Assembly: GCA_938743325.2 (NCBI GenBank)
Contig: OW568864.1
Span: forward strand, 372,001-436,000
Length of the DNA stretch: 64,000 nt
Reading direction: 5' to 3'
Origin: Pycnococcus provasolii
Lineage: Eukaryota; Chlorophyta; Pseudoscourfieldiophyceae; Pseudoscourfieldiales; Pycnococcaceae
Part shown: piece by piece, positions 1-64,000 of the stretch
Layout of the letters: each line of letters begins with the position of its first letter
Numbering within the stretch: the first letter of the stretch is position 1
Program-made: the position numbers and the translations under genes
Notes under the pieces: model-generated
What the model saw: the letters and a program-made list of their open reading frames with translations, nothing else
Databases searched by the model: none
Told to the model about the DNA's origin: nothing

Positions 1-728
1 GGGGGGGGGGGGGGGGGGGATAGGTTAGGGTTAGGGTTAGGGTTAGCACACAGCTCAGCCCAGCCTGGCATCACGTTATGCATACATAAGGGAAGTAGGA
101 AGTAGTCTAAGCATTGTTATAGTGATGATGTTGTGATGTTATGATTTTAAAAAACTATACGGCCACCCATAGCCACGCACGCCGCCCACGCGTACACAAC
201 CAGGCTGATTGTGGCTGATTGTGGGGCTGATTGTGAACCAGGCTGATTGTGATGTGGCGCATGAGCCATGAGCCAGGCATTGTGAATCAGCCAGCAGCCC
301 AGGAAAAAGATTGATTCCGGTGAGAATGTCCAGCAGTGTTGTAATGGTTACAACACTCAAACCTTCTCCAAAGACCAAAGCTGCTTTGTTTGTCGTTTCA
401 TCCCAAATGGCAAATGCACAAAGGTTGATTTCTCCACCATTCTTTCTCGACCATGAAAGGTCATTTTCGATTTCTCCACGAAGTGTCTTCGTTGCACCAC
501 TTGTGCTTCTTGGAAGGGGGGAGAAGGCTGATTACGAAGCCTGATTTTCCTCCTTTTCTTCGAGGAGTTGGTCTTCTTCTCCTTTTCTTTGACACCGAGG
601 AAAGCCGCCCGTCAGTCCGTATCCCCTACCCTAGCTAACTTTACAGTATATCCAACTTCCCCCGTCAGCCAGCCCGTGCCTCGTCAGGCCCTTTCTTGCA
701 ATTTTCCTCCTCACGGGTAGGGTGCAAG
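1..728. other. Left-end non-coding region with G-run and telomere-like array
   Basis: No convincing gene. Bases 1-19 are a G homopolymer, followed at 21-46 by about four TTAGGG units. A chromosome left end should read CCCTAA on this strand, so this is not an ordinary telomere cap. Bases about 201-255 hold four short repeats of the form ggctgattgtg. The small open frames here have no codon or domain signal. The stretch up to 728 would contain the 5' region of the E3 ligase gene. Confidence 0.6.
21..46 (+). repeat. Telomere-like array (TTAGGG), about 4 units
   Basis: Short TTAGGG array directly after the G-run. It lies far (about 680 bp) from the next start codon, unlike most arrays in the window. 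Confidence 0.9.
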
Positions 729-1547
729 ATGGACGACGCGAAGAGGACGAAAGGCCTCATGCTCCACGGCTGCGAGCACTACCGTCGCAGGTGTTCGCTC
801 GTTGCACCTTGCTGCGGGGAGGCGTTCGTGTGCAGGCACTGTCACAACGAGGTCAAGTGCGAGCGGGAGCAAGACGTGGAGAAGAAGCATGAGCTTAACC
901 GGAGAGACGTTCGCGAGGTAGTGTGCCTCCTTTGCAACACCAGACAACCTGTTGCGCGCGAGTGCAACACTTGCGCCGTCGAGTTTGGTGCTTATTACTG
1001 CGACAAGTGCCAGTTCTACGACGACGATGTCTCGCGGAGACAGTTCCACTGCGACAAGTGCGGCATATGCCGTGTGGGAGGGGCCGAGAACTTCTTCCAC
1101 TGCGACCGCTGCGGCTGCTGCTACAGCACGAGCCTGCGTGCGGACCACAAGTGCGTGGAGCAGAGCATGCACCGCAGCTGCCCCATCTGCCTAGACTACC
1201 TCTTTGACTCGATCAAACCTATCAGCGTTCTTGTTCGGTGTGGCCACGCTATGCACGAGGCTTGCCTCCAGCAACTGCACGACAACGGCATGCTGCGCTG
1301 CCCGCTGTGCAACGAGAGCACGGTGGACCAAAGTGTGACGTGGGGACAGTTCGATGCGGAGGTGGCCAACAACCCACTACCTCCAGCCTTGCAAGGTTTG
1401 CGGTCGAGAATTCTCTGCCGCGAGTGCCGCAAAGAGCAGACTGTACCCTACCACTTCCTTGCGCTTAAGTGCGGGGACCCTTCTTGCGCAAGCTACAACA
1501 CACAATTCCTGGACATGGTGTCTAATGATGCCGTTGTACAATCTTGA
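729..1547 (+). CDS. CHY-zinc-finger / RING E3 ubiquitin ligase (PIRH2/RCHY1, MIEL1 family)
   Basis: Likely an E3 ubiquitin ligase of 272 residues. Domains in order: an N-terminal CHY zinc finger opening with GCEHYRRRC and rich in CxxC/HC pairs (about residues 8-80); a CTCHY finger with repeated YCDKC, FHCDKCG and FHCDRCG (about 80-145); a RING finger from CPICLDYLF through CGHAMH to CPLC (about 150-195); and a C-terminal zinc ribbon (CRECRKE...CGDPSC). This order is the hallmark of RCHY1/PIRH2 and plant MIEL1, which bind E2 enzymes through the RING and are about this size. The frame extends to 696 only through a TTG, so the ATG at 729 is chosen. The stop is TGA. The family is certain; the substrate is unknown. 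Confidence 0.9.
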   Translation: MDDAKRTKGLMLHGCEHYRRRCSLVAPCCGEAFVCRHCHNEVKCEREQDVEKKHELNRRDVREVVCLLCNTRQPVARECNTCAVEFGAYYCDKCQFYDDDVSRRQFHCDKCGICRVGGAENFFHCDRCGCCYSTSLRADHKCVEQSMHRSCPICLDYLFDSIKPISVLVRCGHAMHEACLQQLHDNGMLRCPLCNESTVDQSVTWGQFDAEVANNPLPPALQGLRSRILCRECRKEQTVPYHFLALKCGDPSCASYNTQFLDMVSNDAVVQS

Positions 1548-2367
1548 GTGCCAATTTTTTTCTGCAAGGAAGCTGCGAAGCCTGGAGGCCGGCTCACAAC
1601 AAGCTGCACACGTCGTGTGCGTTGTGTCAAGTCGCCAAGGGAAAATCCTTAAAATCCCCCTCCCCCCCTTTCCCTACGAATACATCTTTTGTTTATTAGT
1701 ATCAATTCTTAAACCTAGAAACGTAGTAATTGTTACACTCTTTACCTAGACTATTTATGACAACTTTAAAAACCACCTGGTAACCAAGACATACAACTGG
1801 CAACCAACCAGTCAGTCAGTCCATGTCGCCTTCCCCTTGAAGGCCTCGCGAAGGCGAAGAGACGGCCATGGAGGAGCCTCGAGGAGCCCCTCCGGGGGCG
1901 AAGCACCGAAGCAGGGCCCCTCCTAGGGGCATCTGAGCTGTCACCTCTTCTTACATAGACTATGGCATGACGTCACCCCTAAAGGCCTCGGTCCCCTCCC
2001 CTGGCCCTGGATGCCTGGGGTGGGGCACGACCCTCGGGGATGGACCTATCATATTGGCACCGGGGGCCGGGGACTCCCCCCCCGGGTTAGGGTTAGGGTT
2101 AGGGTTAGGGTTAGGGTTAGGGTTAGGGTTACATAATCTAGGTGGTTGCGTCCCATCTTTCCTCTTTATCTTTGAAGGTTCTTCTTGATTGATTGTTGTT
2201 TTTCTTGGTTTTGCCTAACCTTAGGTGGAGCAATTACAGTATTAATTGTGGTGCTCTCGTCATACGCAATTGTCAATTGTTTATTTTTGTTTTTGTTTTT
2301 GTGTCGCATTTCCTCGTGAATCGTGCGTGCTGCTCTGACCTATCGAAGCTTCATTGATTGCTCAAGC
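1548..2367. other. Intergenic region between E3 ligase and Sec14-like gene
   Basis: No gene seen. It contains short AGTC repeats near 1810, GC-rich sequence with a C/G run at 2075-2086, and a telomere-like array at 2084-2131 about 240 bp before the next ATG. The T-rich stretch after 2180 probably holds the 5' UTR or promoter of the following gene. Confidence 0.6.
2084..2131 (+). repeat. Telomere-like array (TTAGGG), about 8 units
   Basis: Nearly perfect TTAGGG tandem array, sense-oriented to the downstream gene, abutting a C-run followed by GGG. Confidence 0.95.
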
Positions 2368-3660
2368 ATGTCCGCTGCCGGTGAGACGCTCAGGGACACG
2401 ATAAACAGCAGCCATATTGATGATGATGATGATGAGGAGGAGGAGGAGGAGGAACCAACCAAGCCTCATCCACCGCCTCCCAGTCTGCGGGATGATGGTG
2501 ACGACGACGACGACGATAGTCGTGACGATGCTTCGCCTTCGCCGTTTGTGATTAGAAACGCCACGAGCGACGACGTACACCGAGGTGACAGCAATCATTC
2601 CCATGATGAAGAAGACAATCTGGTGCCCAATCATGTCGATTCAATCATCGAGGATGATCATTCACGAGATGACGGAAAGCAGAAGCAGAGGCAGAACGAA
2701 CAATTCAAGCAGAGCAACATCGTCGAGGAGATGGACCGCAGCGCGGCGCAGTACGGGCCACCAGAATGGGCTGAGCTCTCGCAGACTCACCCAAATGTCT
2801 GGTATGGCGCCGTTGGACCGTCCCACGGCGGCATCGACGAACATATGTTCGATGCAGATAGGATTCGACGACGTGCGATCGAGGCGCGGCGTCTTCGGCA
2901 CATTCAGCAGCGCACCACGACGGATTGCGACGCGTTGCTGACGTACGCAACAAGCCCGGACCGTGCACGTCTCGACCAAACGTACGCAATTCACAGGCGT
3001 GGGCATCTTAGCCGTATGGCATTTCGGATGTTTGGCGGCAGAAAGCAGGCTGAGGATGACCTCGTGCAGACGTATCGCATTCGTGCGCGAACAAAGGACC
3101 TGCACTACATCGAGGCGATGAGGCTTGCAACCACCGTAAGCGTTGCAGCGCCAGTTGGTCGACTGGGCGCATTCGAGCAGGTTCCTTGTATTGTCGTGGA
3201 TGGAGCACACTGTAGCGCGTGCCGCAAGCTGAACGCGGAGGAGCGCGAAGATCTGCTTACGTGGTGCCACGTCGAGGCGCGTAAGGCTGGAAGTGCGAGT
3301 CCGTTCTACATCGTGTATTTGCACAGCGATGCGGACCTGTCCCCGCTACCCGACTGGCAGTTCTTCAAGTACTTGCACGCCGTCGTCGGAAGCGACGTGC
3401 GTCGCAATCTGCAGGGCTTGTACGTCGTTCACCCGAACGCGCACTGGTTCGTTTGGCAGGCTGCTTTTCGTTTGATGGCGGGCGACGTGTGGAGCAAGGT
3501 GCATCGCGTCGACCGTCTCTCTGCCTTGTTTGGCGTGTTCCCTGAGCTTGCTATCGACAGTGAGAACTCACACCATGGAAACATCAGTGGTGCTATTGGC
3601 GAGCACGTGAGGCTGCACGACAGGACGCTAGTACCAAGAGAAGAGGAACCCGAAGAGTAA
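2368..3660 (+). CDS. Divergent CRAL-TRIO (Sec14-like) domain protein with acidic N-terminus
   Basis: Protein of 430 residues. The N-terminal third is low complexity with Asp/Glu runs. The C-terminal part resembles the divergent CRAL-TRIO domain of GDAP2, BNIP2 and ARHGAP1. The pattern includes PFYIVYLHSDAD, a Trp-Gln-Phe-Phe-Lys-Tyr stretch, then NLQGLYVVHPN followed by a Trp/Phe-rich helix, matching the family's KNLxxLYVVHP signature (about residues 310-385). Such domains bind lipids or small GTPase partners; no catalytic role is expected. The frame reaches 2323 only via GTG, so the ATG at 2368 is used. The TAA stop is itself the first TAA of a CCCTAA array. Confidence 0.7.
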   Translation: MSAAGETLRDTINSSHIDDDDDEEEEEEEPTKPHPPPPSLRDDGDDDDDDSRDDASPSPFVIRNATSDDVHRGDSNHSHDEEDNLVPNHVDSIIEDDHSRDDGKQKQRQNEQFKQSNIVEEMDRSAAQYGPPEWAELSQTHPNVWYGAVGPSHGGIDEHMFDADRIRRRAIEARRLRHIQQRTTTDCDALLTYATSPDRARLDQTYAIHRRGHLSRMAFRMFGGRKQAEDDLVQTYRIRARTKDLHYIEAMRLATTVSVAAPVGRLGAFEQVPCIVVDGAHCSACRKLNAEEREDLLTWCHVEARKAGSASPFYIVYLHSDADLSPLPDWQFFKYLHAVVGSDVRRNLQGLYVVHPNAHWFVWQAAFRLMAGDVWSKVHRVDRLSALFGVFPELAIDSENSHHGNISGAIGEHVRLHDRTLVPREEEPEE

Positions 3661-3718
3661 CCCTAACCCTAACCCTAACCCTAACCCCTATACCCTAACC
3701 CGAACCCCTATCCCCTAA
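3658..3718 (-). repeat. Telomere-like array (CCCTAA on + strand), degenerate at right
   Basis: Four perfect CCCTAA units, then variants such as CCCCTATA and CCCGAA. It begins in the stop codon of the upstream gene and lies about 190 bp before the ATG at 3909. Confidence 0.95.
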
Positions 3719-3908
3719 TAACCTTAGGTGAGCCTGGATGGGATTCTTCGCTCCCCCTCTCCCCCCCATGGGCCATCCTGATCGGAAACAATCGGAATCC
3801 CTCCCTCCCCAGACCACTCTCCCCGGACCCGAACTCGGGAGATGTATCCCTCTGAATCTTCAATACCGGCCATTCATTTCGGCCTGTTGTCTCTCGTCTT
3901 TGTCAAAG

Positions 3909-4502
3909 ATGGCTCTATCACTCTCAAATCACTTCCGTTTTGTCTCTCACACGCGTCCTTGCTTGCGTCCTTGCTTGGGATCGCAGTTGCCATGTCGGCG
4001 AAGCGATCTTGGGTCTTCTTTAGGTCACAGTTATGGAATTAGGCGGTTTTCGGCGAATCATGTGGTAATGTGTAAAGCGTCGGGGGGTGGTGGTGGGGGC
4101 TTTGGTGGTGGTGGTGACCCAGAGACGTCGTCGGCGTCGGTATCGTCGTCAACGTCCAAGCCCGCAGTCAACCAGGAAGTACTGCGACGCATTGAAAGCG
4201 AAGTGCCCGCCTGGGAACGGGGATCGTCGCAGAAAGCTGACGGAGAGAACGACGATGGACTGCCGTGGCCGCTGTACCTGCTCGCGTCGTGTATCGTGAC
4301 CATCGCGGCAACTGGCAGCATCTTCGAATACGGGTCTCGCAACCCCATCTTCAACATCGTTCAGCCCGACTCGCCGCTTTGGGCACCCATTCTCGGCTGG
4401 TTTGTCTTCACCGGATACCCTCTCGCCGTGTACCTCTGGATGAAAGGCATCGCAGGCGCGAACGAGGCTTCAGACCGAATGGACGAGATGGATGGCTACT
4501 GA
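3909..4502 (+). CDS. Plastid-targeted membrane protein of unknown function
   Basis: Protein of 197 residues from the ATG at 3909. An in-frame ATG at 3738 would add 57 residues, but the sequence from 3909 (MALSLSNHFRF, then Arg/Ser/Cys-rich) looks like a chloroplast transit peptide, so the later start is preferred. A Gly-rich linker (about residues 60-70) and a Ser-rich segment follow. The C-terminal 80 residues contain two hydrophobic helices, WPLYLLASCIVTIAATGSIF and WAPILGWFVFTGYPLAVYLW, joined by a short loop with NPIFNIVQPDSPL. This layout recalls small thylakoid proteins conserved in plants and cyanobacteria, but I cannot name it. It is convergent with the thioredoxin gene, 68 bp apart. 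Confidence 0.65.
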   Translation: MALSLSNHFRFVSHTRPCLRPCLGSQLPCRRSDLGSSLGHSYGIRRFSANHVVMCKASGGGGGGFGGGGDPETSSASVSSSTSKPAVNQEVLRRIESEVPAWERGSSQKADGENDDGLPWPLYLLASCIVTIAATGSIFEYGSRNPIFNIVQPDSPLWAPILGWFVFTGYPLAVYLWMKGIAGANEASDRMDEMDGY

Positions 4503-4570
4503 GTCAGGCCTCGTCGAAGCACTTGGCACGCTGCGAGCAGGCTAAGCGAAGATTACTCAAAATTCTATTG

Positions 4571-5020
4571 TTACTCAATAAATTTTGGCCAGTCTTGGTG
4601 CAACCATAGTCTGTCCTCAACCGCCTGCAAGTCCGCGTCTCCACCGCCAAACCGCCGGTCGACCATCTTACCGCCACGGAAAATGGCAAAGGTTGGCGTG
4701 AAGCGTATGTTCTTCGCAGTATCCGAGCACTCCTCCACGTCCGCCACCACGAAGTCCATCTTTGGATTCGAATGCGCCATTCGCTCGAAGCGTGGCAAGG
4801 TGCCCCTGCACACGTGGCACCACGCCGCGCCGAAGTTGACGACAAGCGCCCTCTTCGCCCGACCCGCCAGGTCCACGCGGTCGCGCAGGTCCCAGTCGTC
4901 AATTGCGGTCACCAGATTCGACGGAGGTTCCGGCGCGAATCGGCCGTGCACCCTCCTTGCCTGCGTCGCACCTGCCAGCGAGGCCCTGGGGGGAGGCTCG
5001 GACGGCTGGTTGCCCGCCAT
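4571..5020 (-). CDS. Thioredoxin-fold protein with CHVC active site
   Basis: Protein of 149 residues with one thioredoxin domain. VVNFGAAWCHVCRGTLP carries the CxxC redox pair in an unusual form (CHVC rather than CGPC), and FTPTFAIF supplies the cis-proline loop. The first 35 residues are Ser/Arg/Ala-rich and could be a transit peptide, so a plastid or mitochondrial location is possible. The start is a proper ATG (CAT at 5018-5020). A telomere-like array lies about 80 bp upstream of it. The family is clear; the subclass is not resolved because CHVC is not a standard plant subtype. Confidence 0.8.
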   Translation of the reverse strand: MAGNQPSEPPPRASLAGATQARRVHGRFAPEPPSNLVTAIDDWDLRDRVDLAGRAKRALVVNFGAAWCHVCRGTLPRFERMAHSNPKMDFVVADVEECSDTAKNIRFTPTFAIFRGGKMVDRRFGGGDADLQAVEDRLWLHQDWPKFIE

Positions 5021-5385
5021 GGCCGAAATGACGACAAATGAGGGCCTACAAAATGACGACGACCGCCGACGGGAAACCAGGGGGGGGGGGGGGGGACATC
5101 CAACCCTAACCCTAACCCTAACCCTAACCCTAACATTAGGCGCCTCTTCTTCTTAGACTACCCGTACGACAGCTCTTCGTTCTTACCCGCCCGCCTGGAT
5201 GGATCGTCGCACACATACTGTACACGGCGTGATTACGACGTTTTATCGTAAGAAACACCGAAGACTCAGACATCAGAGTCTGGGTAACAAACAGCAACTG
5301 TGACTTGCAGTTACAGTGATTAGTACCTACCGTACAACCGTACGAATAATAATTAGGTAATATATTCATTAGAGTACCACTCAAG
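5021..5385. other. Intergenic region with G16 run and telomere-like array
   Basis: No gene. A 16-base G-run (5080-5095) sits next to the CCCTAA array at 5103-5141. The rest is AT-richer sequence up to the 3' end of the lipase gene. Confidence 0.6.
5103..5141 (-). repeat. Telomere-like array (CCCTAA), about 6 units
   Basis: Clean CCCTAA array. Read on the strand of the thioredoxin gene it is TTAGGG, about 80 bp upstream of that gene's ATG. Confidence 0.95.
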
Positions 5386-7110
5386 CTACATCACGAGCCA
5401 GCACATAAGTGAGACGGAGGCAGAAATGCCCGCCAACCTGATTCCAGTGCTCGACAAAACGCCAGAAGTGGCTGTAGTTATACTTGTAGTGGTCAGTGTA
5501 TCCTTCGCAGATGGGGTTACGGCAGGAGGCGGAGATGCAGGAGAAGAGGTTTCGTTTGTCGGCGGCAGAGGCGAGCTCACTGGAGGAGATGGTGATGACG
5601 TCACGGAAGAAGGTGGCGTTTGACTTTGTGCGGGAGGCGATGGCTGGCTCGGCGGTGGATCAGGAGGCGTTGGTGGCGGGCTCGGCGGTGGCGGGCTCGG
5701 CGGTGGCGGGCTCGGCGGCGGCGGGCTCGGCGGCGGCGGCGGCGCTGGCGGAAGCTCGTTCTGAACGTACCATGCGTACATCTCTGCGAAGCAAGATAGA
5801 GCAGCCATCGTGTGATTTCCCGAGACGTAGAAGGTCTCGATCTTGCCGTCCATGATTGTTTCCATGCGCCCTAAACCTTTTTCTACAACGAGCTTGGGTA
5901 CGGTCATGTCGTCGTTGCCGTGACAGATCGTCACCGGGCGTGTGATCTTCCAATCTCCGTAGAGCAAATCGCTGTCCGTTCTGACCAAGTTTGCAAGGAA
6001 GTCGGCCATCTCCTCCTTCCGTCCCGACGATGCCGGCAGTGCCGGCAGTGACGGGTCTTCCACGCGCTCCATCTGATTCGAGTAGCGCACGAGGAAGCTG
6101 TCATGAAAGACGGTGGAGATGTCGCGAGGAGTGTTTGCGGAAACGTACGCAGAACTGCGGGCACCGCTGAATAAGTCTAGCAGCTTTGTGTCCCACGGCG
6201 CCTTGACGACGTCACCGATGCGGGTGAGCTTATTTGACGCAAAGAGCGCGCCAACGAGCTGGTACAGCACCGCGTAAGGGAGAGTGTACTCTGATATTCT
6301 TTGAATCACCCAGTTCGTGTGCGCGATGACGTCGAGCGGCGCGCCAGTTGGGAATGAGGAGAGATGTCGAAACTGTCCGACGATATTGCTCTTGATCACT
6401 TCATCCAAATACCGGTGCACCGCAAGTGCTGCGTATCCACCCTCGCTGTAACCTGCCGTGTAGAAGTCGATTTTGCTCGTCGGTGGGTTGTCAACGATGC
6501 GACCCAAGGAAGTTGAGAGCGCCAGTAACATGTGCTCCACGTCACGTCCGTAAGGTTTATACTGCACGTAAGGGTGATACTCACTCGAGGCGGACAGGCC
6601 GATTCCTTCTGTGTCTGGCATAATCACCATCATGCCGAGACTAGCGAGGATCGTGCGTACTACAGAGCTGAAGGAGCAACTGAGCGCGTTGAGCGGCCTG
6701 CACAGCCGCTGTTCACTCTGCGCCTCCAAATCACCCGTGGCAGTGCTTGGCATCCATACGACCGCTTTGTCAGGAATGAACGCTTGGTTAGGAGTTTTTG
6801 CGTGGCTCGGCAGTGTGACGATCGCGCCGTTTGTAATGTACTCGCCGGTGACGCCTACGCTACCGTACGTGAACTTGTACTCCACCGCCGCGTAGCTGAT
6901 GCGTATGAGTTTTAAGCGTGGATCTCCTCGCGGGTAGAATAGTTCGAGTGCGTTGGCAAGGTCACGCAAAATCTCGATGTCGCTCTTCACCAGGTATGGG
7001 AGCTTGGCCCAACTTCCGACTTCGCCGGGCGAGAGAGCCCATGTCGCCTTGTGGTAAGTGCCAAAGAGCAGGAGCCCAAATGCTAACCGCCAGACGCTCG
7101 AGCCTCGCAT
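5386..7110 (-). CDS. Secreted, GPI-anchored lipase/esterase with Pro-rich stalk
   Basis: Protein of 574 residues. It starts with a Sec signal peptide (MRGSSVWRLAFGLLLFGTY) and continues as an alpha/beta hydrolase of the secretory-lipase (LIP) type. The nucleophile elbow is GYSEGG with Ser222; HGNDDM gives the acid at about Asp400; SGNHTM gives the catalytic His433. After residue 450 comes a stalk of SPPPP repeats, typical of green-algal hydroxyproline-rich glycoproteins, then a Ser/Thr-rich region and a hydrophobic tail (SLMCWLVM) after a Ser-Ser-Thr-Gly site, which fits a GPI-anchor signal. It probably acts at the cell surface on lipid esters. The frame extends to 7140 only by GTG; the ATG at 7110 fits the signal peptide. 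Confidence 0.85.
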   Translation of the reverse strand: MRGSSVWRLAFGLLLFGTYHKATWALSPGEVGSWAKLPYLVKSDIEILRDLANALELFYPRGDPRLKLIRISYAAVEYKFTYGSVGVTGEYITNGAIVTLPSHAKTPNQAFIPDKAVVWMPSTATGDLEAQSEQRLCRPLNALSCSFSSVVRTILASLGMMVIMPDTEGIGLSASSEYHPYVQYKPYGRDVEHMLLALSTSLGRIVDNPPTSKIDFYTAGYSEGGYAALAVHRYLDEVIKSNIVGQFRHLSSFPTGAPLDVIAHTNWVIQRISEYTLPYAVLYQLVGALFASNKLTRIGDVVKAPWDTKLLDLFSGARSSAYVSANTPRDISTVFHDSFLVRYSNQMERVEDPSLPALPASSGRKEEMADFLANLVRTDSDLLYGDWKITRPVTICHGNDDMTVPKLVVEKGLGRMETIMDGKIETFYVSGNHTMAALSCFAEMYAWYVQNELPPAPPPPPSPPPPSPPPPSPPPPSPPPTPPDPPPSQPSPPAQSQTPPSSVTSSPSPPVSSPLPPTNETSSPASPPPAVTPSAKDTLTTTSITTATSGVLSSTGIRLAGISASVSLMCWLVM

Positions 7111-7340
7111 GTTATATAACTCTGCAGTTGAACTCTGCACGGACGCACGTCTTTCACCTTGCGTTGTGTAAGAAAGAGCTAACCAAAGTCGTCTCGCCTT
7201 CCAGTCGTCGAGCAGTCAGTTTTCCCCAAGGATGTCAAAAGGATGTCAACTGCACGGCTGAGGTGAACTGTGCTGACCACGCCAACGCCACACGAGGCGA
7301 CAACACAACACCTTAAGGTTGTGCACAAGAGGGCACGGCC

Positions 7341-7427
7341 ACTTCACTCACTCACTCACTCACTCACTCACTCACTCACTCACTCACTCACTCACTCACT
7401 CACTCACTCACTCACTCACTCACTCAC
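7341..7427. repeat. CACT tetranucleotide microsatellite, about 21 units
   Basis: Perfect run of CACT units over about 85 bp. Confidence 0.97.
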
Positions 7428-8241
7428 AAGGCCGCTGACTTACACAACACACGAGACAACGCCGCACACACACGAGGACAACGAAACGAAACGCACTGGT
7501 GGCTCCACGAAACTCACTGCCTCACCGGTGCAAGGATGACTGCCTTGACTGACGAGACTTCTGAAGTTGGCCTAAAATAACCTTAATACGGTAAAGCGAG
7601 GTTGTTTTCAGCTTTGAGCTTTCCCAACGAGTCGTTCGGTCAGACGTTCGGTTAGACGGTGTGATTCACAGACGGTCAGCTTCACCTTCTAAAAGTTGGC
7701 AACGTTGCCAAATTAAATATTTGCAAGCTTGCATGGTTGAAATAAGGTTACGTGTGTGTGGGGTGTCACTGTGGTGTCACTGTGGTGTGGTGTGGTACTG
7801 TGGTGTGTTGTGGTGTCGACAACTGGTCTATTCCTAGTGCTACAGTACACGAGGCGACAACGGGTTGACAACGCGGCACCCTCCTTCTTCTTTCCTTCTT
7901 TTATTTGTCAGTCTGTGCCTCTGTGGCCTCGCAAGAGATCTGGACGCTCCGCCGCTCCGGATTTACACACATTTTGGCATTTTTGCTTTTCGTCGTTGAC
8001 CGTCGTCGTTTACTGCAGTTTTGAGTTTTCCCTTTTTTTGAGCATTTTTGGAGCATTTCTGTCCTTTCATGTAGTTACTGCAGTGGGCCGAAACGTCGAC
8101 CTAAACTTTCGTGATATTGCTAATCTATCGGGTTCGCGTCACCACCACTCAAATTGCGCCACAATTGCGAAAAATCAAGGCATCAACCCTTTCATCACCG
8201 TCCCAACGCGTCCTGCGAAGAAAGAAAGACTTAAAAGTTAA

Positions 8242-8299
8242 AACCCTAACCCTAATCCTAACCCTAACCTAACCCTAACCAAAACTCTACCCTAACCCG
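8242..8299 (-). repeat. Telomere-like array (CCCTAA), with CCTAAT and CCTAAC variants
   Basis: Irregular CCCTAA array ending about 130 bp before the ATG of the GT29 gene. Confidence 0.9.
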
Positions 8300-8427
8300 A
8301 ATTATTTCGGGGTTGGCACCAAGCACGCACTCACCCTGTACACGGTCACACGCTTGTTTGTGCGATTTCACGACGGCGACGATGGCGGTGAAGTAGTCGT
8401 AGTACATACCGTACCGGTACCTCTGCC

Positions 8428-9396
8428 ATGTCCTTGGGTAACAGGAGGAGGAGGGTGGTGGTGGTGGTGTGGCTTCTTATTGGGTTGCTTTTTGGGCTGC
8501 TCAGCAACATACCTGTCGCACACTCCTTCTCCACGCCTCTCAACAAGTGTCTCCCTCTCCCCTCCATCGTCACCAACCAAGACACCTTATCAGATATCAC
8601 CGAAGCCTTCTCGCGTCTTGCCGATAAAAGCAAAATCAAAGGCAAGTTCGAAGGGTCCAAGTCGTGCGCAATCGTCGGGAACGCGGGTGTACTCAGCAAA
8701 CAGAACTTTGGGAGCAGCATAGATAAACACGATGTGGTCATGCGCATGAACCACGCGCCAACCGGGCGAAGACAGAGTTCTCTGAAGTCACGCGTCGGTG
8801 TGAAAAGCAGCGTGCGCTTGCTGAACATCATGTGGACGAGGAGGTACGGTACCAAGCGTCTCCGGTGCGAGAAAGGCCGCAACGTGTGCACGAGTGGGGG
8901 TTCACCCGAACAGGGCACGCTCATGGCAACACGTGTGCAGAGCGGCGGCGTGAACCTCTGCACGCAGTTGAAACGTGCGCGTTCCGACGCCACGTGCCAG
9001 AGCGTCAAGGTGGTGCACGCCGCAAGCAAGCTCCTGTCCATGTTCCGAGTCAGCCTTAAAAACTGCGGGAAAGGCCCTCACCCAAGCTACGCAGAGACGA
9101 CGAAGAACTCGCCAAGCACTGGATTTCTTGCATTTTATATGGCCGCGCTTATGCCCAACTCAAGTGCAGGAAGAGGCTTGTGTCAGAAGCGAGTTGCTCT
9201 GTACGGATTTGCAGGCGACGCGGCGAAGAGCGCGCGGTATAAATACCACAGCTTCGGGCGGATGCGTGGCTATGGGTCGCACAACTTTTTGCTCGAGCAG
9301 AGTCTCATGCGTAAACTTGCGCGCAACGCGAGCGCACTTGGCCTTCCACCAATCGTGTTCTGCGGCTCCAAGCCAGATGGTGGGTGCAAGTACTAA
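8428..9396 (+). CDS. GT29 sialyltransferase-like glycosyltransferase, type II membrane protein
   Basis: Protein of 322 residues. A short basic tail (NRRRR) and one hydrophobic helix (about residues 9-30) make it a likely Golgi type II membrane protein. Sialylmotif L is clear: CAIVGNAGVL (Cys80 onward), then IDKHDVVMRMNHAPTG. Sialylmotif S is PSTGFLAFYMAAL (from residue 229) with the following YGF. HNFLLE (His285) matches the motif III/VS region. Families of this kind transfer sialic acid in animals; plant and algal members are linked to Kdo- or Dha-containing glycans, which is the likelier role here. It is short for the family, with a minimal stem region. It is convergent with the KxDL gene. 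Confidence 0.88.
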   Translation: MSLGNRRRRVVVVVWLLIGLLFGLLSNIPVAHSFSTPLNKCLPLPSIVTNQDTLSDITEAFSRLADKSKIKGKFEGSKSCAIVGNAGVLSKQNFGSSIDKHDVVMRMNHAPTGRRQSSLKSRVGVKSSVRLLNIMWTRRYGTKRLRCEKGRNVCTSGGSPEQGTLMATRVQSGGVNLCTQLKRARSDATCQSVKVVHAASKLLSMFRVSLKNCGKGPHPSYAETTKNSPSTGFLAFYMAALMPNSSAGRGLCQKRVALYGFAGDAAKSARYKYHSFGRMRGYGSHNFLLEQSLMRKLARNASALGLPPIVFCGSKPDGGCKY

Positions 9397-9522
9397 AGAG
9401 ATTCAAAGTTCGCCTCCCCAACGCACGTGAATAAATAAAGGAATGTAAAATAAAAGTGTGTGTATGATTACAGGAACAAAATAGTTTACATTTACAACAT
9501 GTTTTCGTCCAAAACCTCTTCC

Positions 9523-10083
9523 TCAAGTGTTTTGATTTTCGTCGGGTCTTTCCGTGGTTCCCGTGGTACTCCACTTCTCCGCGATGTCTGGATACGACGT
9601 GGCGATTCTCTGCTTGATGGCACGTACGTTGGTCATGACGTACGTCAAGTCCTTTTTGATGGATGTTAGAGCTTGTATTCCCGCATTAAGTTCGACGTTT
9701 GCGGCTTGAAGTTCGCGTGTAACGCGTGCGTCAGCGCCTGCTAGTACTTGAGAGGTTTGCGCAAGTTGCGACGCGATTGCGGACTGACGTCGTTCGCACA
9801 GGTCGAGTTCGTCGTGCGGCGTGATGTGCGCGACAAACTCCGACAGAGCTTGCGCGGCGTTAGACGCCAAGCCGTCCGACATGGAAGCCAGAGGTTGGTT
9901 TTCGGTCGTCGCAAGGGCATGGTTCTTCTTCTTATTTTCATCATCGTCGTCGAGGAGGATCTGAGCAGATTTTGATGAGAAGGATGATGATGACGATGAC
10001 GGACCACCACCAGCACCAGCAGCAGCAGCACCAGCAGCAGCACCACCAGCACCAGCAGCACCCCCCACAGGCAAGTTTGACAT
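9523..10083 (-). CDS. KxDL-motif protein (BORC/BLOC-1 subunit KXD1 family)
   Basis: Protein of 186 residues. The N-terminal 60 residues are Gly/Ala/Ser-rich and probably disordered. The C-terminal half is helical and ends with ALTSIKKDLTYVMTNVRAIK then TSYPD, the IKxDL signature of the KxDL domain (about residues 125-165). In animals KXD1 belongs to the BORC and BLOC-1 complexes that position lysosome-related organelles. Identity rests on that motif and the helical pattern, so it is moderate. It shares a divergent promoter region with the PcyA gene. Confidence 0.65.
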   Translation of the reverse strand: MSNLPVGGAAGAGGAAAGAAAAGAGGGPSSSSSSFSSKSAQILLDDDDENKKKNHALATTENQPLASMSDGLASNAAQALSEFVAHITPHDELDLCERRQSAIASQLAQTSQVLAGADARVTRELQAANVELNAGIQALTSIKKDLTYVMTNVRAIKQRIATSYPDIAEKWSTTGTTERPDENQNT

Positions 10084-10243
10084 GTACCGACGTTAAAACT
10101 AAAAATGCCGAACGAACGTACCGGGTACGTTTAGGAGGAGTTGAATTAGGAACAGAAAACACGAAAAACGAAACGGTCCGGAAAAAACAAAAACGGATGG
10201 ACCCTCCCTCACTCAGGCTGTCAGGTCAGGGAACGAAGGCTCA

Positions 10244-10330
10244 GTTAGGGTTATAGGGTTAGGGTTAGGGTTAGGGTTATAGGGTTAGGGTTAGGGTTAT
10301 AGGGTTCGGGTTAGGGTTATAGGGTTTGGG
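10244..10330 (+). repeat. Telomere-like array (TTAGGG with TTATAGGG variants)
   Basis: Array of TTAGGG broken at intervals by TTATAGGG, in the divergent promoter between KxDL (start 10083) and PcyA (start 10519). Confidence 0.95.
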
Positions 10331-10518
10331 TTTTTTTTTCACCTGTTCATTTGTTTGTTTCGGGTGTCCACTTTTTATCCCTCGCCGCCGCCATGAAGCT
10401 CACCAACCGCCTTTCATCCTCCTCCTCCTAGGAGTGCACAACGACGAATCTGCCCACGGGTCATTGTTATTGTTCCTCTTGCTTTTGAAGCTGAAGTTAG
10501 TTGCTCCCTGGACTGATT

Positions 10519-11967
10519 ATGAGTGTTCGAAGCCATACGTGCAGTGTATTCCCTCCTTCTCCTACTTCTCGGAGTCATCTTCGGAGTCATCTTCGGAGTC
10601 ATCTTCTTGGTGGTCGTTCTCGTCAACCTAATCAGGTCGTCTCTTGGTCGTCTCCTTGGAAATCTCACTCACTGTGCTCTCCTCAGGGAAGGGTTCTTCA
10701 ACTTGCTTGTCGTTCTTCGTCTTCCTCGTCAGATTCTCAGTCAGATTCTGGAGGTGGTGATACTGGTGGCGATGCGGCATCGAATCAGAATCAGAATAGC
10801 AGTAGCAGTAGCAGTAGTGAAAGACAGCGTGAGGAGGCGATGCGTCGTCGGATTGACTCCATGTTGCGTGAAGCGGGACTTGGAGGACTTGGTGCGGGAC
10901 TTGGGCTAGCAGATGGCGAACTGCCGTTAGATATCGAAGGACGCGCGCCATCCGCGAAACCCATGGAACCGACGCGCGTGCACGAACTTATGGGACTCGG
11001 GGGATGGAAACTCGGCAGGGAAGTTCACCCCATACTCGCTCTGCTCGGCGCGCAAATCGAAGGCGCTTGGCGCGAATTTCTACTCGAGGACATGAGGTGG
11101 ATCGCACCGCCGGGCCTGTACGAAGACGACGTTGAGCCGCGCCTGCGAGCGGCGAGCCTGCGCCTGCACGAGTACGTCGACACGCTCGGCGTCGCGGCGT
11201 TCTACGACGCGATCGAAGGCGGCGCGACCGAAAAGGAGGCGTTCGACATTGAAAGGGCTGCTCACATGCAAGAAGGACCGCCGCCGCTACCACCTACCGA
11301 GGAGGGACGGAAGCCGCCCACGACGAGGTTTCGCGTCGAAAACCGCGCGTACACGTCGCGCGTTTTCAGGAGACTTCACATGGAGCTGGCTGTCGAGGAT
11401 GGAGGAAGCGGCCTATCCGTGCTTCACGTCGTCATGTGGCCGCGTCCCGAATTCGACATTCCCATCTTTGGACTCGACCTCGTCGCGCGCAGGGGAGGAA
11501 CCGTCGGATTCGCAATCGCGGACCTGAGCCCTGTGGAGCTTGACGGCAGCCTGCCAAATTCGCACGTCGCCGCAATGGACACGCTGCTCACCGAGAGCGG
11601 CTTGGAAGAGTTCACGATCCGCTCGCTGGACAGCGACGTCAGCGGCAGCCCCGCGGCGCGCGTGCCAGATTGGGCACGCGAAATTTTCAGCGATCGTTGC
11701 GTTCTCTTTCGTCCCGGCAAAGATGAAGATAAAATCGAGCGGTTCCTAAAGTACGCGACAGCGCTCGCACGCTCGCATCTGCAGATTACCAAGCAGTGGG
11801 CCCCGGTTCCCGAAGATAAGCCAGCCACGCGCAGGCAGCTGGTAGCCGCGCAGAGCCGATACGCCTCCAAGCAGCGCGAAAATGCGCGCACCCGCGACGT
11901 GCTCGCCGCCCACTTCGGCGAGCTGTTTGCGGACAGGTACTTGCGCGAGGTGCTTTTTGATGTGTAG
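10519..11967 (+). CDS. pcyA: Phycocyanobilin:ferredoxin oxidoreductase (PcyA-type bilin reductase)
   Basis: Reduces biliverdin to phycocyanobilin with electrons from ferredoxin, supplying the phytochrome chromophore in algae that make PCB. The protein has 482 residues. The first 140 or so are Ser/Arg-rich, then Ser/Gln-rich, and probably include a plastid transit peptide. The catalytic domain shows RRLHMELAV, then VLHVVMWPRPEFDIPIFGLD. His303 and Asp320 are spaced exactly like His88 and Asp105 of cyanobacterial PcyA, and Glu289 corresponds to Glu76. Further family marks are IADLSPVELDG, IFSDRCVLFRP, and the C-terminal RYASKQRENARTRDVL...YLREVLFDV. The ATG at 10519 is used; a TTG lies 18 bp upstream. 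Convergent with the MED20-like gene. Confidence 0.92.
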   Translation: MSVRSHTCSVFPPSPTSRSHLRSHLRSHLLGGRSRQPNQVVSWSSPWKSHSLCSPQGRVLQLACRSSSSSSDSQSDSGGGDTGGDAASNQNQNSSSSSSSERQREEAMRRRIDSMLREAGLGGLGAGLGLADGELPLDIEGRAPSAKPMEPTRVHELMGLGGWKLGREVHPILALLGAQIEGAWREFLLEDMRWIAPPGLYEDDVEPRLRAASLRLHEYVDTLGVAAFYDAIEGGATEKEAFDIERAAHMQEGPPPLPPTEEGRKPPTTRFRVENRAYTSRVFRRLHMELAVEDGGSGLSVLHVVMWPRPEFDIPIFGLDLVARRGGTVGFAIADLSPVELDGSLPNSHVAAMDTLLTESGLEEFTIRSLDSDVSGSPAARVPDWAREIFSDRCVLFRPGKDEDKIERFLKYATALARSHLQITKQWAPVPEDKPATRRQLVAAQSRYASKQRENARTRDVLAAHFGELFADRYLREVLFDV

Positions 11968-12036
11968 AATATTCATATCTGATTCTTTTGTTACTTAATG
12001 CTGTACATAATCAACTTGACGATAACGAGACAAAAA

Positions 12037-13038
12037 CTAAGTCTGCTTTGGCGTCACGAGCGGCGTTGCCGCACTTGGTGTGGACTTGTTCATGCCTGCT
12101 CGGACCCCGCTGATGACGCGCCCGGTTGCGCTCGCGCATATGACGGCGGTGTGCAGACGAAGGCATTCGCTTCCCTGGGCCCCGAGCTCAACGTATTGCT
12201 CGAACGGCGGCGTGTCCATCGGATCCCACGTGCCGCCTGCAAGCACTTCAGCGTGCGGGAGTTTCTCGGCGATGATTTCGTTGACGGACTGCTCGAGTTC
12301 GTTCGCAACGGCGACGAGAGTCTGCGGCGGTGCGATGACCCTTCGTGCTTGAGGGACCGCCGGCGTGCCTGCTGGTGCTGCGTTGCTTGCCGTGTGCGTG
12401 ACTCTCGTAATTGTCTCTTCAGGCCAGCGATGGCAACTTGTGTGAACGAATTCGACGAGCACGACGAGTACCTTGTTTGCGAGGGTACACTTGAAGATGT
12501 TGATATCCACGTCTCCTCGCACGTACCGTTCCCCCTGCCACGCGAGCCTGACTCTCTTGGTGTTTGTGTCGACGAGTTTGATGAGCTCCGCCCCTCCTCT
12601 CAGTATGCGTCTTTGTTGCCTGAGTACGAGCGCGACGGCGTTGGCGTCGTCGGATCTGCGTATAATAAAAACGTCGTTCGGCGGCTTCCACGGATTTCCC
12701 GGCACGTTCGTCTGAGTTTGCGATTGTTGTCCCTTGGCGTGCTGTCCCCCCCCAACCTGCTGTCCCCCTTGCGCACTTCCCGAAGCCCCTGAAGCCCCTG
12801 ACCGAACGATATCACACGCGACAGAGATCGAATTACTATACTGGAATCCAATGTACGAGCAAGCAGCAGCGAGGGAAGACGCACCTGACAAGTCCACGTC
12901 GGGATCCCGGCCCAAGAATGATGATGACGACCCAGACAATGAAGAAGATGAAGATGTATTAAAAAAGTGCAAAAGACGAACGCTGTCACTTAAAGGAAGG
13001 CTGCTGTGAGGAGCAGACGAAGAAGACGGATCCGACAT
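12037..13038 (-). CDS. Mediator subunit 20-like protein
   Basis: Protein of 333 residues, tentatively Mediator subunit MED20 (head module of RNA polymerase II Mediator). Supporting pattern: NDVFIIRR, then a stretch running RVRLAWQGERYVRGDVDINI and FKCTLANKVLVVLVEF, which lines up by eye with the plant MED20 region from YYFIIRG to the MEVEYLP strand. Near the C-terminus, FEQYVELGAQGSECLRLHTAV resembles the MED20 FAEY...SQHTAVQYA ending. The N-terminal 60 residues and residues about 95-125 are low-complexity Ser/Gly/Gln insertions. The ATG at 13038 is chosen; the upstream extension starts with GTG. A profile search would settle it. Confidence 0.5.
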   Translation of the reverse strand: MSDPSSSSAPHSSLPLSDSVRLLHFFNTSSSSSLSGSSSSFLGRDPDVDLSGASSLAAACSYIGFQYSNSISVACDIVRSGASGASGSAQGGQQVGGGQHAKGQQSQTQTNVPGNPWKPPNDVFIIRRSDDANAVALVLRQQRRILRGGAELIKLVDTNTKRVRLAWQGERYVRGDVDINIFKCTLANKVLVVLVEFVHTSCHRWPEETITRVTHTASNAAPAGTPAVPQARRVIAPPQTLVAVANELEQSVNEIIAEKLPHAEVLAGGTWDPMDTPPFEQYVELGAQGSECLRLHTAVICASATGRVISGVRAGMNKSTPSAATPLVTPKQT

Positions 13039-14920: not shown

Positions 14921-15058
14921 CGTGACGCGCGCATGGACGAATGTAAAGGTAGCATTTTTCTCTTCGTGGCCCACAACATCTAGCGCTCTGCGTCTTGCTG
15001 ACATGATGATGGGGTTCGTGATCAAAGTATACTCAATTCCATTACTGAATGAGCGATC

Positions 15059-15778: not shown

Positions 15779-15851
15779 GAGGACAGACGGAAAGGTGGGA
15801 AAGTTCTCAAAAAGTGAAATGAAAAAATCTTATCCAAATCGGAACAGAAGA

Positions 15852-15902
15852 TTAGGGTTAGGGTTAGGGTTAGGGTTAGGGTTAGGGTTAGGGTTAGGGT
15901 TA
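15852..15902 (+). repeat. Telomere-like array (TTAGGG), about 8.5 perfect units
   Basis: Perfect array in the 280-bp divergent gap: 74 bp from the CHI-fold gene start and about 157 bp from the start at 16059. Confidence 0.97.
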
Positions 15903-16058
15903 CTCCTTCCGTGAAATCCAAACCCGAAACCCGAAACCTGACTTTTTGGACTTTTTGCGATTTGCTTTTGCGATTACCCATCGCCCTGGGAAAGTTCGCC
16001 AGTGATATGGCGGCATGGCGGCAGTGATGGGACGTCGTTGACAGTTCGCTGCTGGAGC

Positions 16059-35127: not shown

Positions 35128-35167
<40 letters not shown>

Positions 35168-38690: not shown

Positions 38691-38723
<33 letters not shown>

Positions 38724-53241: not shown

Positions 53242-53360
53242 TCTTCGAAGCACTTACTGGATCAACGCATGTGCCCTTAAGGGTCTCTTCTCTGGGGAAG
53301 AAATACAGTATTTGGGACGCGCGCGCGAAAATAAGAAAAAGATCCGCGGCCTAACTTAAC

Positions 53361-53417
53361 TTAGGGTTAGCGGGTTAGGGTTTTATGAATATGTTATGAT
53401 AGGGTTAGCGTAGGGTT
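53361..53417 (+). repeat. Degenerate telomere-like tract (TTAGGG)
   Basis: TTAGGGTTAGCGGGTTAGGG followed, after an AT-rich stretch, by AGGGTTAGCGTAGGGTT. It is in the divergent gap between DNAAF9 and the gene at 53479. Confidence 0.75.
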
Positions 53418-53478
53418 CCTTGGAGGATTCATCCGGAAAGTATACCCTCGTAGCGAGCAGTGAATCGGATGCCCAGTG

Positions 53479-54669: not shown

Positions 54670-54894
54670 CAAGAGTGTTTTTTTTTTTTTTTTTTTTTTG
54701 TTACTTCAACACATTACTTGAACACATTGATATTACAAACAAAACACACACCTGACACCTTGTTACACTTTGGTGTACTCGTAGCCGGTGACGGTGACAG
54801 CTTCACCTGATATGCAAGGCCATGGCAAAGGCACGGCCGAAAGTATTACGTGCGCGGCCTGCTGCGAGGCATGTTGTGTGTCTCTGTTCACTAT

Positions 54895-54981
54895 GGGTTA
54901 GGGTTACGGATTAGGGTTAGGGTTAAGCTAGGGTTAAGCTAGGGTTACGGATTAGGGTTAGGGTTACAGGTAGGGTTACGG
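54895..54981 (+). repeat. Telomere-like tract (TTAGGG with TTACGGA and TTAAGCTA variants)
   Basis: Higher-order pattern: units of GGGTTA separated by acggatta or agcta, repeated twice, about 1 kb from any start codon. Confidence 0.85.
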
Positions 54982-55494
54982 CAAATTGCGTTATCTGCGC
55001 CGTTATAGGTGCTTTCAGCATGTCATTTTTTTAATACGACACGTCCTAATTATGCTTAAGATGATGCCATGTCAAACTTTAACAGATCTGAAAACTTTTT
55101 TTCTTCGGTACATATTTCGCGTCTAAAAATAAAAGCACGCTCTTAACCTATGTGTATATTTACTTTGATTATAAATATTTTGGAATTTCACACAAACTTT
55201 TTTGTACGGCCAGGTGGTAGTGCGCGCGTTGTCGCAGCGCGTGCGCGAGGTCTTCGGCACGTCGTGCACGCCGACGCTAAGCTTAAAATCACGTCTGGGT
55301 GACCCGGAACACGTCACGAAGATAACCCCGAATCGGTATTTTTTGACCTTTTTTAACCCCGAATTCAAGAATAACGTTTTTCACGAATTGTTTCTTCGCA
55401 CGCGTGTACTACGTTTGCTTAAGGACGTCATCGACCTTGCATACGTGAAAACTCGCCCCGTAAGTGCCGTACGAATAACGTGTCATCTCCATGT

Positions 55495-55517
55495 TTTCGT
55501 GTAGTAATTACACGAAA
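55495..55517. terminator. Stem-loop at end of tandem copy 1 (possible 3' processing or termination signal)
   Basis: Perfect 9-bp stem with 5-nt loop. Its conserved place at the end of both copies suggests a function or an element boundary; calling it a terminator is inference. Confidence 0.35.
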
Positions 55518-55852
55518 TAAATGAAGAAAGAAACCCCCACCAAAATCTCCCTAAACTTTTTCGTACGGCCAGGTGGTAGTGCGCGCGTTGTCGCAGCGCG
55601 TGCGCGAGGTCTTCGGCACGTCGTGCACGCCGACGCTAAGCTTAAAATCACGTCTGGGTGACCCGGAACACGTCACGAAGATAACCCCGAATCGGTATTT
55701 TTTGACCTTTTTAACCCCGAATTCAAGAATAACGTTTTTCACGAATTGTTTCTTCGTACGCGTGTACTACGTTTGCTTAAGGACGTCTTCGACCTTGCAT
55801 ACGTGAAAACTCGCCCCGTAAGTGCCGTACGAATAACGTGTCATCTCCATGT

Positions 55853-55875
55853 TTTCGTGTAGTAATTACACGAAA
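55853..55875. terminator. Stem-loop at end of tandem copy 2 (possible 3' processing or termination signal)
   Basis: Same hairpin as in copy 1, located 34 bp beyond the stop codon of the minus-strand ORF at 55909. Confidence 0.35.
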
Positions 55876-55908
55876 TGAAGAAAGAACCCCCCCCCCCCTA
55901 GCACTCCA

Positions 55909-63064: not shown

Positions 63065-63071
63065 TGACCAT
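62826..63071 (-). CDS. Short ORF carrying the copied segment; ends overlapping the ZIP ATG
   Basis: Open frame from the ATG at 63071 (MVNVDDDTDNSVVV, then the copied NPNATGKRFTATTRPC segment). Its TGA shares one base with the ZIP ATG (TGATG at 62828-62824). The frame stays open through the copied part. It may be an upstream ORF or a by-product of the duplication; no separate function can be claimed. Confidence 0.3.
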   Translation of the reverse strand: MVNVDDDTDNSVVVTTSTLRGGLEGHLQCHVQCQGANKQGFTHAFVPTNPNATGKRFTATTRPCVVITEEFEKACKRRHGH

Positions 63072-63523
63072 CACGCTGCGTCGGCAGGGCACTGCCCGCA
63101 CACCTCGGTCCTGTCGTACTGCGTCCTGGCTGTGCGCGCCGCCAGGCGTTCCGCTGAATGTAAAGCGCCAGTGGCAGTGGTGGTGGTGTTGTCAGCACTG
63201 AGCGCCTGGCGCACCCATGACAAACCCCCAAACTCGCGTCCTTCGCAAAATCTGCGACCAAACTGACCCCATAACTAAAGTCTTTAATTATGCCCTAGGG
63301 CCTAATTAAAGACGTTTTTCGCCTGAATCAGGGCCTAATTAAAGGTGGCCGGAAGGGGCTGACCTGCATCCGGTTTAACTAACTTCGTTAGGGTTTAGGG
63401 TTTAGGGTTTAGGGTTTAGGGTTAGTGTTAGGGCGCCGCCGCCGCCAGGGCGTCGTGCTAGCACGTCGGCCTCAACAGACAGACAGCCTCAAGTGGATTG
63501 GTTTGGTTTTCCATAGATACACT
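63072..63523. other. Intergenic region with short repeats and TTTAGGG array
   Basis: No gene. Contains repeats of taattaaag(acg/gtgg) around 63275-63345 and the TTTAGGG array. Confidence 0.5.
63388..63433 (+). repeat. Telomere-like array of the plant type (TTTAGGG), about 4 units
   Basis: Four TTTAGGG units followed by TTAGTG and TTAGGG, about 90 bp upstream of the ATG at 63524. It is the only TTTAGGG array in the window; all others are TTAGGG. Confidence 0.93.
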
Positions 63524-64000
63524 ATGCCGCCGCGCCGCTCGTCTCGTAGCGTATCCAATCAGAAGTCGAATACACAGCCTTCCTTGGAAACTCCTGCTGA
63601 ACATCCTGCTTCTGTTCCTGCTTCTGCGAAGAATCCTCGATCGTCGAATTTGACTTCGTCTGCGAAGTCGTCTGCCTCATCTCGAAAAGCTCAGTCTCAT
63701 TCGTCTCACAAGAATGTGAACGTGTCTGCGGACATGATGGTCGCCGCAGCCGCCGCAGGAGCCCCTATCGACGTGGTGCCCGTTACGGCGACTGGTAATG
63801 GTGGTGACACTTCTGGTACGCCAGCCTTGAATGAAAGGAAGCATTCATCAGCACGAAAGCGTGCGCGGGACAACGACGCACCCCCCGGGGCGCGCAATCA
63901 GAAGTCGCAAAAGTCAACATCACGACCGCCGACCGACGACGACGATGAGAACGTCGGCGCGAACGCCGACGCCGTCGACATCGTCGCGCACGCCGCCGCG
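63524..64000 (+). CDS. Ser/Lys/Ala-rich protein, 5' part only (runs off the window)
   Basis: Open frame of 159 codons from the ATG at 63524 to the window end without a stop. Starts MPPRRSSRSVSNQKSNTQPS, with many Ser, Ala, Pro, Asn and Lys residues, a basic ARKRARDND cluster that could be a nuclear localisation signal, and an Asp run near the end. It looks like the disordered N-terminus of a longer protein. No family can be given from this part. Confidence 0.55.
   Translation, partial: MPPRRSSRSVSNQKSNTQPSLETPAEHPASVPASAKNPRSSNLTSSAKSSASSRKAQSHSSHKNVNVSADMMVAAAAAGAPIDVVPVTATGNGGDTSGTPALNERKHSSARKRARDNDAPPGARNQKSQKSTSRPPTDDDDENVGANADAVDIVAHAAA

Follow-up and report, generated by a model that had tools for sequence, protein, structure and literature searches.

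Telomere-repeat arrays in the window

A 64,000-bp stretch of chromosome 4 of the marine prasinophyte Pycnococcus provasolii (C4:372001-436000; the window) contains short arrays of the hexamer TTAGGG/CCCTAA among its genes. We give about even chances to the explanation that these arrays are short interstitial telomeric repeats (s-ITSs) left by telomerase-type insertion and tolerated mainly between genes, with some copies possibly acting as telo-boxes. The assembly, ucPycProv1.2 of P. provasolii CCAP190/2 according to the genome note (PMC11130579), consists of 46 contigs and 32,333,900 bases. The genome is compact (~32 Mb) and intron-poor. Our gene models were obtained with a simple two-strand gene finder, which uses no transcripts and was run on the window and on the systematic and array-centred loci described below; according to them, genes are tightly spaced and for the most part single-exon. 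By domain and protein searches, window proteins matched bilin-reductase, sialyltransferase, Mur-ligase, DAAF9, CRAL-TRIO, NCA2, and eRF1; the eRF1 shares 99% identity with an entry of P. provasolii. The protein matches suit a green alga, and a fungal, trypanosomatid, or stramenopile origin was rejected on them. Rfam and tRNA scans across the window gave no matches.

The window holds 98 TTAGGG/CCCTAA hexamers, compared to a mean of 12.7 and a maximum of 21 in 100 dinucleotide shuffles, and 17 clusters of at least two hexamers (mean 0.02, maximum 1 in the same shuffles). TTAGGG is the telomere unit of P. provasolii: contigs C3 and C4 start with long CCCTAA runs. The tracts of the window and of the sampled loci are internal and made of the alga's own telomere unit, as s-ITSs are.

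At the window edge, a (TTAGGG)3 tract (25-42, plus strand) lies 687 bp from a start. The (TTAGGG)7 array at 2087-2128 (plus strand) occupies a same-direction gap, 240 bp 5' of a CRAL-TRIO-domain gene whose start is predicted at 2368. A CCCTAA tract of six hexamers with variants (3661-3718, minus strand) fills most of the 77-bp gap between a stop at 3660 and a start at 3738; it is 20 bp from this start, yet begins 1 bp past the upstream stop. (CCCTAA)5 at 5104-5133 (minus strand) was found 84 bp from the start (5020) of a minus-strand gene. Divergent gaps contain a degenerate CCCTAA tract (8244-8295, minus strand), 133 bp from the start at 8428; a TTAGGG/TTATAGGG tract (10245-10316, plus strand; gap 10084-10518) upstream of the bilin reductase gene; a minisatellite with CCCTAA units whose ~90-100 bp repeat is present three times (13143-13368, minus strand); a perfect (TTAGGG)8 (15852-15899, plus strand; gap 15779-16058); a single TTAGGG followed by (CCCTAA)5 at 24224-24253 (24204-24253 in all, of no single strand), 108 bp from the start (24116) of an NCA2-domain gene; and two TTAGGG hexamers (53361-53380, plus strand; gap 53242-53478). 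Two separated CCCTAA hexamers (17562-17582, minus strand) lie 164 bp from the eRF1 start at 17746, a TTAGGG tract of 12 hexamers with variants (29951-30059, plus strand) lies 202 bp from the start at 30261, and a TTAGGG/TTTAGGG tract (63388-63433, plus strand) lies 91 bp from the predicted start at 63524. The exception is a TTAGGG tract at 54898-54963 (plus strand) in the convergent gap 54670-55908, which overlaps a dispersed repeat (54939-55125, 81% identical to L008:9460-9657). A ~345-bp segment is duplicated within the same gap (55194-55541 and 55553-55895, 97%).

The sequence-only reading of the window had listed thirteen array positions, nearly all close to start codons, and had stated that the arrays avoid convergent gaps. 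At eleven of these positions, two or more hexamers stand within 30 bp of each other and form an array. Position 17519 corresponds to a weak tract of three scattered hexamers (17527-17582), and position 19199 has no intact TTAGGG, just TAGGGTTACC-like variants. With the exception of 19199, the listed positions are indeed 20-240 bp from the nearest predicted start codon, but the tracts at 25-42 (687 bp) and 54898-54963 (in the convergent gap) stand away from starts. Nine convergent gaps named as array-free contain no hexamer at all; our own gene models give 11 convergent gaps in the window, and 54670-55908 is the only one bearing an array. The convergent gaps without arrays are 68-343 bp long and the array-bearing one is 1239 bp, and the inference from position is weaker because the array-free gaps are short. 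Both orientations occur, as had been stated: the G strand is sense to the gene in 18 arrays and opposite in 13 (window and samples together), and no orientation rule relative to genes was found among them.

Abundance across the genome

The systematic sample consisted of 25 loci of 10 kb (L001-L025, 250 kb) picked by coordinate prior to reading. The array-centred sample comprised 20 loci of 2 kb (L026-L045), taken in order from a genome-wide list of matches to a non-G base followed by three perfect units. Matches at a chromosome end, in one cluster with another match, or inside loci sampled earlier were skipped, and these loci are not representative of all arrays. Both samples, with the window excluded, are referred to as independent DNA. 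Four telomeric tracts in L001, L014, and L019 were dropped before counting. Tests of gap type omit tracts in edge-cut gaps (one in the window, two systematic, four array-centred) and three array-centred tracts in predicted coding sequence or intron, leaving 13 tracts in the window, 13 in the systematic sample, and 15 in the array-centred loci.

Three consecutive TTAGGG units gave 5217 overlapping matches genome-wide, telomeres included, compared to 2 for the reversed control. Three units of the one-base variant TTCGGG gave 117 matches, many of them within one array; the telomere unit dominates over this variant ~45-fold, telomeres included. A long TTCGGG array lies at C23:504227-504514. The systematic sample contained 15 non-telomeric tracts in ~247 kb, which extrapolates to ~2,000 tracts in the whole genome, and the array density of the window is ~3.6 times higher (14 tracts in 64 kb, p = 0.0008). 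None of these 15 tracts lies inside predicted coding sequence, which accounts for 193,872 of the 250,000 bases of the systematic sample; together with the window, ~77% is predicted coding and ~19% classified intergenic. No description of these tracts was found among the titles and opening lines of abstracts of the open-licence papers matched by the search words used, nor in the first two of three parts of the genome note (PMC11130579).

At L045:672-1156, ~38 kb from the C2 end, an interstitial tract of 37 hexamers occurs together with 182 bp that match, at 99% identity, sequence next to the C3 telomere (L014:342-523); the two are perhaps a chromosome-end piece moved inward.

Position of the arrays and gap geometry

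Median gap lengths in the window and systematic sample were 520 bp for divergent, 627 bp for same-direction, and 154 bp for convergent gaps, and 64% of the bases in divergent gaps are within 300 bp of a start codon. Since divergent and same-direction gaps are ~520-630 bp long and convergent gaps ~150 bp, most surviving arrays would lie no more than a few hundred bases from a start. The promoter proximity of the arrays is mostly expected from this geometry.

Among the 13 classified arrays of the window, one was convergent, compared to 1.9 expected by base share (p = 0.41). Within-gap permutation gave 7.6 expected at 50-300 bp from a start, where 11 of the 13 were observed (p = 0.0075), but the window is the very sequence that prompted the position idea. 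Independent DNA (n = 28) had 11 divergent, 16 same-direction, and 1 convergent array, with 12.0, 11.8, and 4.1 expected by base share, which the arrays follow approximately; the convergent depletion (1/28) had p = 0.067. By within-gap permutation, 19 of these 28 arrays were at 50-300 bp from a start vs. 16.0 expected (p = 0.13), and 9 of the 16 in same-direction gaps were closer to the 5' side vs. 8.0 expected. The systematic sample alone gave 6/13 at 50-300 bp (4.9 expected) and 4/8 same-direction arrays closer to the 5' side.

Control tandem repeats were counted as classified intergenic cases in the window and systematic sample. This comparison has 21 telomeric tandem repeats, 19 of them in classified gaps, and its clustering differs from that of the tract list. 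Telomeric repeats were closer to a 5' end in 15/19 cases and convergent in 2/19; the corresponding counts were 57/77 and 5/77 for non-telomeric repeats of period up to 10, and 34/43 and 2/43 for longer-period repeats. Telomeric and other short-period repeats thus have a similar distribution (Fisher p = 0.77), although the share at 50-300 bp from a start leans the opposite way (13/19 vs. 34/77, Fisher p = 0.075). Coding sequence holds none of the 21 telomeric repeats and 107 of 196 other short-period repeats. Microsatellites of Arabidopsis and rice are likewise reported to have a 5' bias (PMC3022908), and in the alga, as in those plants, the bias is largely common to arrays and microsatellites.

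In a compact genome with short convergent gaps and similarly placed control repeats, marking of 5' sides and avoidance of convergent gaps are unsupported as a special property of multi-unit arrays. An equal spread of arrays, or a lack of enrichment at starts, named beforehand as the outcomes that would speak against such a property, is nearly what arrays outside the window display, but not what isolated single hexamers display.

Array ends and possible origin

Perfect runs of at least two units numbered 30 in the window and systematic sample and 28 in the array-centred loci. Their G-strand 3' ends had the phase GGGTTA in 20 of 58 runs vs. ~9.5 expected, and the whole end-phase distribution had a simulated p = 0.004. 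Genome-wide, 884 runs end in GGGTTA followed by a non-G base. This base was C in 65, T in 23, and A in 12 of the first 100 matches listed (counted by eye); in intergenic background, C makes up 34% of A/C/T following TTA. At the 5' end, A was the first base out of register in 17/30 runs of the window and systematic sample. Such a constant end phase is consistent with template-directed synthesis that halts at the boundary of the template, or with selection for a binding site; it is not predicted by slippage, random breakage, or the pasting of telomere fragments. The variant units, the interrupted tracts, and the minisatellite with units at 13143-13368 could be taken as traces of microsatellite slippage that began at one hexamer, either fortuitous or functional; given the preferred phase of the ends and the ~45-fold excess over the one-base variant, we regard this origin as highly improbable.

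A TERT RNA-binding domain is encoded at C10:563906-564304. Telomerase healing, put forward in the sequence-only reading, is a sensible suggestion, as this domain is predicted in the genome and the array ends have the polarity expected of templated synthesis. In this account, telomerase or a related reverse transcriptase would, as the main source, add telomere units at broken or nicked DNA, and the added repeats would then be sealed into the chromosome. They would persist where they disrupt nothing and so accumulate in the ~19% of classified intergenic DNA, ~77% of the window and systematic sample being predicted coding sequence. For primate and rodent s-ITSs, break repair assisted by telomerase has been proposed (Nergadze et al., 2007; PMC2246262).

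Flanks of the arrays in window 1-18000 were unrepeated save two stretches (39 of 512 candidates scored), and no recognisable dispersed element was found around these arrays; beyond 18000, flanks were compared solely with the sampled loci. The first stretch, 49-119, beside the tract at 25-42, is repeated once (94%). The second, 9985-10065, is 180 bp from the tract at 10245 and matches several other places at 82-96% identity. This segment (~50-80 bp) lies at the 5' end of the gene 9523-10083 and perhaps represents a common leader or transit-peptide segment.

Insertion by telomerase followed by tolerance between genes draws on the chromosome-end identity of the repeat, its density, its rarity in coding sequence, the gap geometry, the polarity of array ends, and the TERT domain, all computed here. 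Several points weigh against it. We infer the insertion event itself from comparison within one assembly. The fixed 3' phase could instead be a retained protein-binding site (GGGTTAC), and the count of 65/100 was made by eye on the first 100 matches listed, which run from C1 to early C4 and include one telomeric match. Among the 22 tracts of the array-centred loci, two are in predicted coding sequence and one in a predicted intron. With the prompting window included, 30 of all 41 arrays are at 50-300 bp from a start vs. 23.6 expected (p = 0.007) and 2 are convergent vs. 6.0 expected (p = 0.047), and a small true position effect of the arrays is possible. Microsatellites also slightly exceed geometry (5'-nearer 57/77, p = 0.042; convergent 5/77, p = 0.022), and geometry does not fully account for either class. 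Finally, the gene models behind the position tests are our own predictions made without transcripts.

The excess of all 41 arrays near starts, together with a 5' bias common to arrays and microsatellites as reported in plants (PMC3022908), would be accounted for if arrays entered at nucleosome-free promoters where breaks occur, following the telomerase/recombination model of Gaspin et al., and were functionless afterwards. With independent arrays alone the same test gives p = 0.13, and we hold this route to be rather unlikely.

Isolated hexamers and a candidate TRB-like protein

Hexamers outside arrays were counted in the window and systematic sample, and their numbers are small. Isolated CCCTAA was closer to a 5' end in 28 of 32 cases and isolated CCTAAC in 25 of 27, which rank second and first of 60 permuted words. 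Pooled non-telomeric permutations of the hexamer letters were 5'-nearer in 1086 vs. 534 cases (67%), and the 5'-nearer share of bases is 64%. Without the window, CCCTAA still gave 19/22 (p = 0.014). The remaining rotations were less extreme (38/47, 28/38, 33/45), and GGGTTA had no bias (24/45). Of the 7-mers, ACCCTAA was 5'-nearer by 12 to 0 and AACCCTA by 14 to 6. An array within 400 bp was found at 11 of 83 promoters of the systematic sample, and at least one ACCCTAA at 16/83, compared to 4/83 for a control word; for the window promoters, these counts were 17/32, 20/32, and 1/32. Single telomere hexamers do favour gene 5' sides.

A query for the Myb domain of Arabidopsis TRB1 matched C37:387953-388117 (64%, E 4e-18), C9:345311-345475 (62%), and, weakly, C8:541672-541815 (50%). 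The linker-histone family PF00538 scored 42.7 bits, against a cut-off of 22.4, at C37:388280-388468; this match shares strand and register with the Myb match, and both lie in one 419-aa open frame. PF00538 had no match at the C9 Myb locus, and an exact TRB signature peptide pattern had none genome-wide. The C37 locus, one of the two close Myb matches, fits by its match coordinates the TRB layout of an N-terminal Myb and a central H1/H5 domain; we consider it a candidate gene for a TRB-like Myb/linker-histone protein. With such a protein apparently encoded, the proposed TRB-type binding is a sensible suggestion. One survey places the origin of TRB proteins in the streptophyte Klebsormidiophyceae (PMC10167121); a TRB-like protein in a chlorophyte, if the full sequence confirms it, would mean an earlier origin of this plant telomere/Polycomb adaptor than that survey indicates.

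Because single units are 5'-enriched and a plant-type TRB protein appears to be encoded, a second layer, weaker but likely, may be added to telomerase-type insertion: some copies may serve as promoter elements (telo-boxes). A stronger claim is that the arrays themselves are functional multi-unit telo-boxes, bound by TRB proteins, opening promoters or recruiting chromatin modifiers, and selected at 5' sides. Such a function would explain the top ranks of isolated CCCTAA and CCTAAC, the Myb and linker-histone matches in one frame (C37:387953-388468), the lean of telomeric repeats toward 50-300 bp from starts, and the parallel with the 5' bias reported for plant telo-boxes (PMC3022908). However, independent arrays have no significant 5' preference, non-telomeric microsatellites are distributed much alike, arrays stand at 11 of the 83 promoters sampled, their orientation follows no rule (18 to 13), and the rotation GGGTTA is unbiased, and we judge the claim unlikely. 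It appears decidedly unlikely that the telomere repeat has turned into a genome-wide promoter module, in which telomerase would seed arrays and a TRB-type Myb/linker-histone protein would read them. A single sequence and a single protein would then serve telomere maintenance as well as gene regulation at many promoters, and a TRB-type reader would be present outside streptophytes.

A repeat family with telomere-type junctions

One repeat family has the right end ...AACAAGTAGAACTGAAGA; allowing two mismatches, this word occurs at 94 sites, 93 of them exact, compared to 4 for a control word. The 15-base core of its left end, TTAGGGGGGGCCAGTATTGCC, has 94 sites when one mismatch is allowed, 90 of them exact, and the control has none. 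Both ends were read in ten copies (L046-L064): GGGTT closes the left flank in 10/10, and the right flank opens with TTAGGG or TTCGGG in 8/10. The family is homogeneous, many sites being paired on the same strand 0.6-5.6 kb apart with a variable interior; its loci include L046, L026, L020, L038, L040, and L041. In the single long copy read, six open frames had weak coiled-coil matches only, below curated cut-offs, and none to a reverse transcriptase; searches for known RNAs gave just sub-threshold Rfam matches.

The telomere-type junctions of this family, and the fact that the arrays in L020, L026, and L040 adjoin it, raise the question of a mobile element with telomere-type ends as the carrier of the arrays. 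Both end words are absent from the window, which rules out the window arrays as part of the 94-copy repeat; the flanks in window 1-18000 are unrepeated apart from 49-119 and 9985-10065, and by eye only 4 among 100 array places listed are within 20 bp of the right-end word. We regard a mobile origin as very unlikely. Telomere-associated retroelements include endonuclease-deficient Penelope-like elements and TRAS/SART. The family resembles them in abutting telomere-type units, but differs in having no reverse transcriptase match in the six frames, and it is absent from the window.

Comparison with known systems

The alga resembles plants with telo-boxes in its 5'-enriched telomere motifs, its microsatellite bias, and its predicted TRB-type protein (Gaspin, Rami, and Lescure, 2010; PMC3022908). 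Plant telo-boxes are described there as ~1.1-1.3 units of TTTAGGG, in contrast to the multi-unit TTAGGG tracts of the alga, whose arrays lack a significant 5' bias in independent DNA, the bias being with single hexamers. Plant telo-boxes are associated with ribosomal-protein and translation genes; in the window, one eRF1 gene has a weak tract. Primate and rodent s-ITSs, as reported in PMC2246262, are similar in their short scattered tracts and non-random junctions, and perhaps in flanks mostly unrepeated where checked; the tracts of the alga differ in being dense (15 in ~247 kb). Sites of the yeast general regulatory factors Tbf1/Rap1 (PMC6410037) also combine a telomere-type promoter motif with a telomere-binding reader, the candidate reader of the alga being a plant-type TRB.

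A compact genome with ~2,000 tracts, by extrapolation, offers a clean setting for the origin of interstitial telomere repeats and their possible co-option at promoters. Caution is needed: where gaps are 150-600 bp long, closeness to promoters is in large part what one would expect of intergenic sequence of any kind.

Other features of the window

Positions 740-1315 have a 96% identical copy on the opposite strand at C4:965720-966298, a duplication within the same chromosome. A 1535-aa open frame at 38487-43094 contains Mur ligase middle and C-terminal domains and far exceeds the length of a bacterial Mur ligase.

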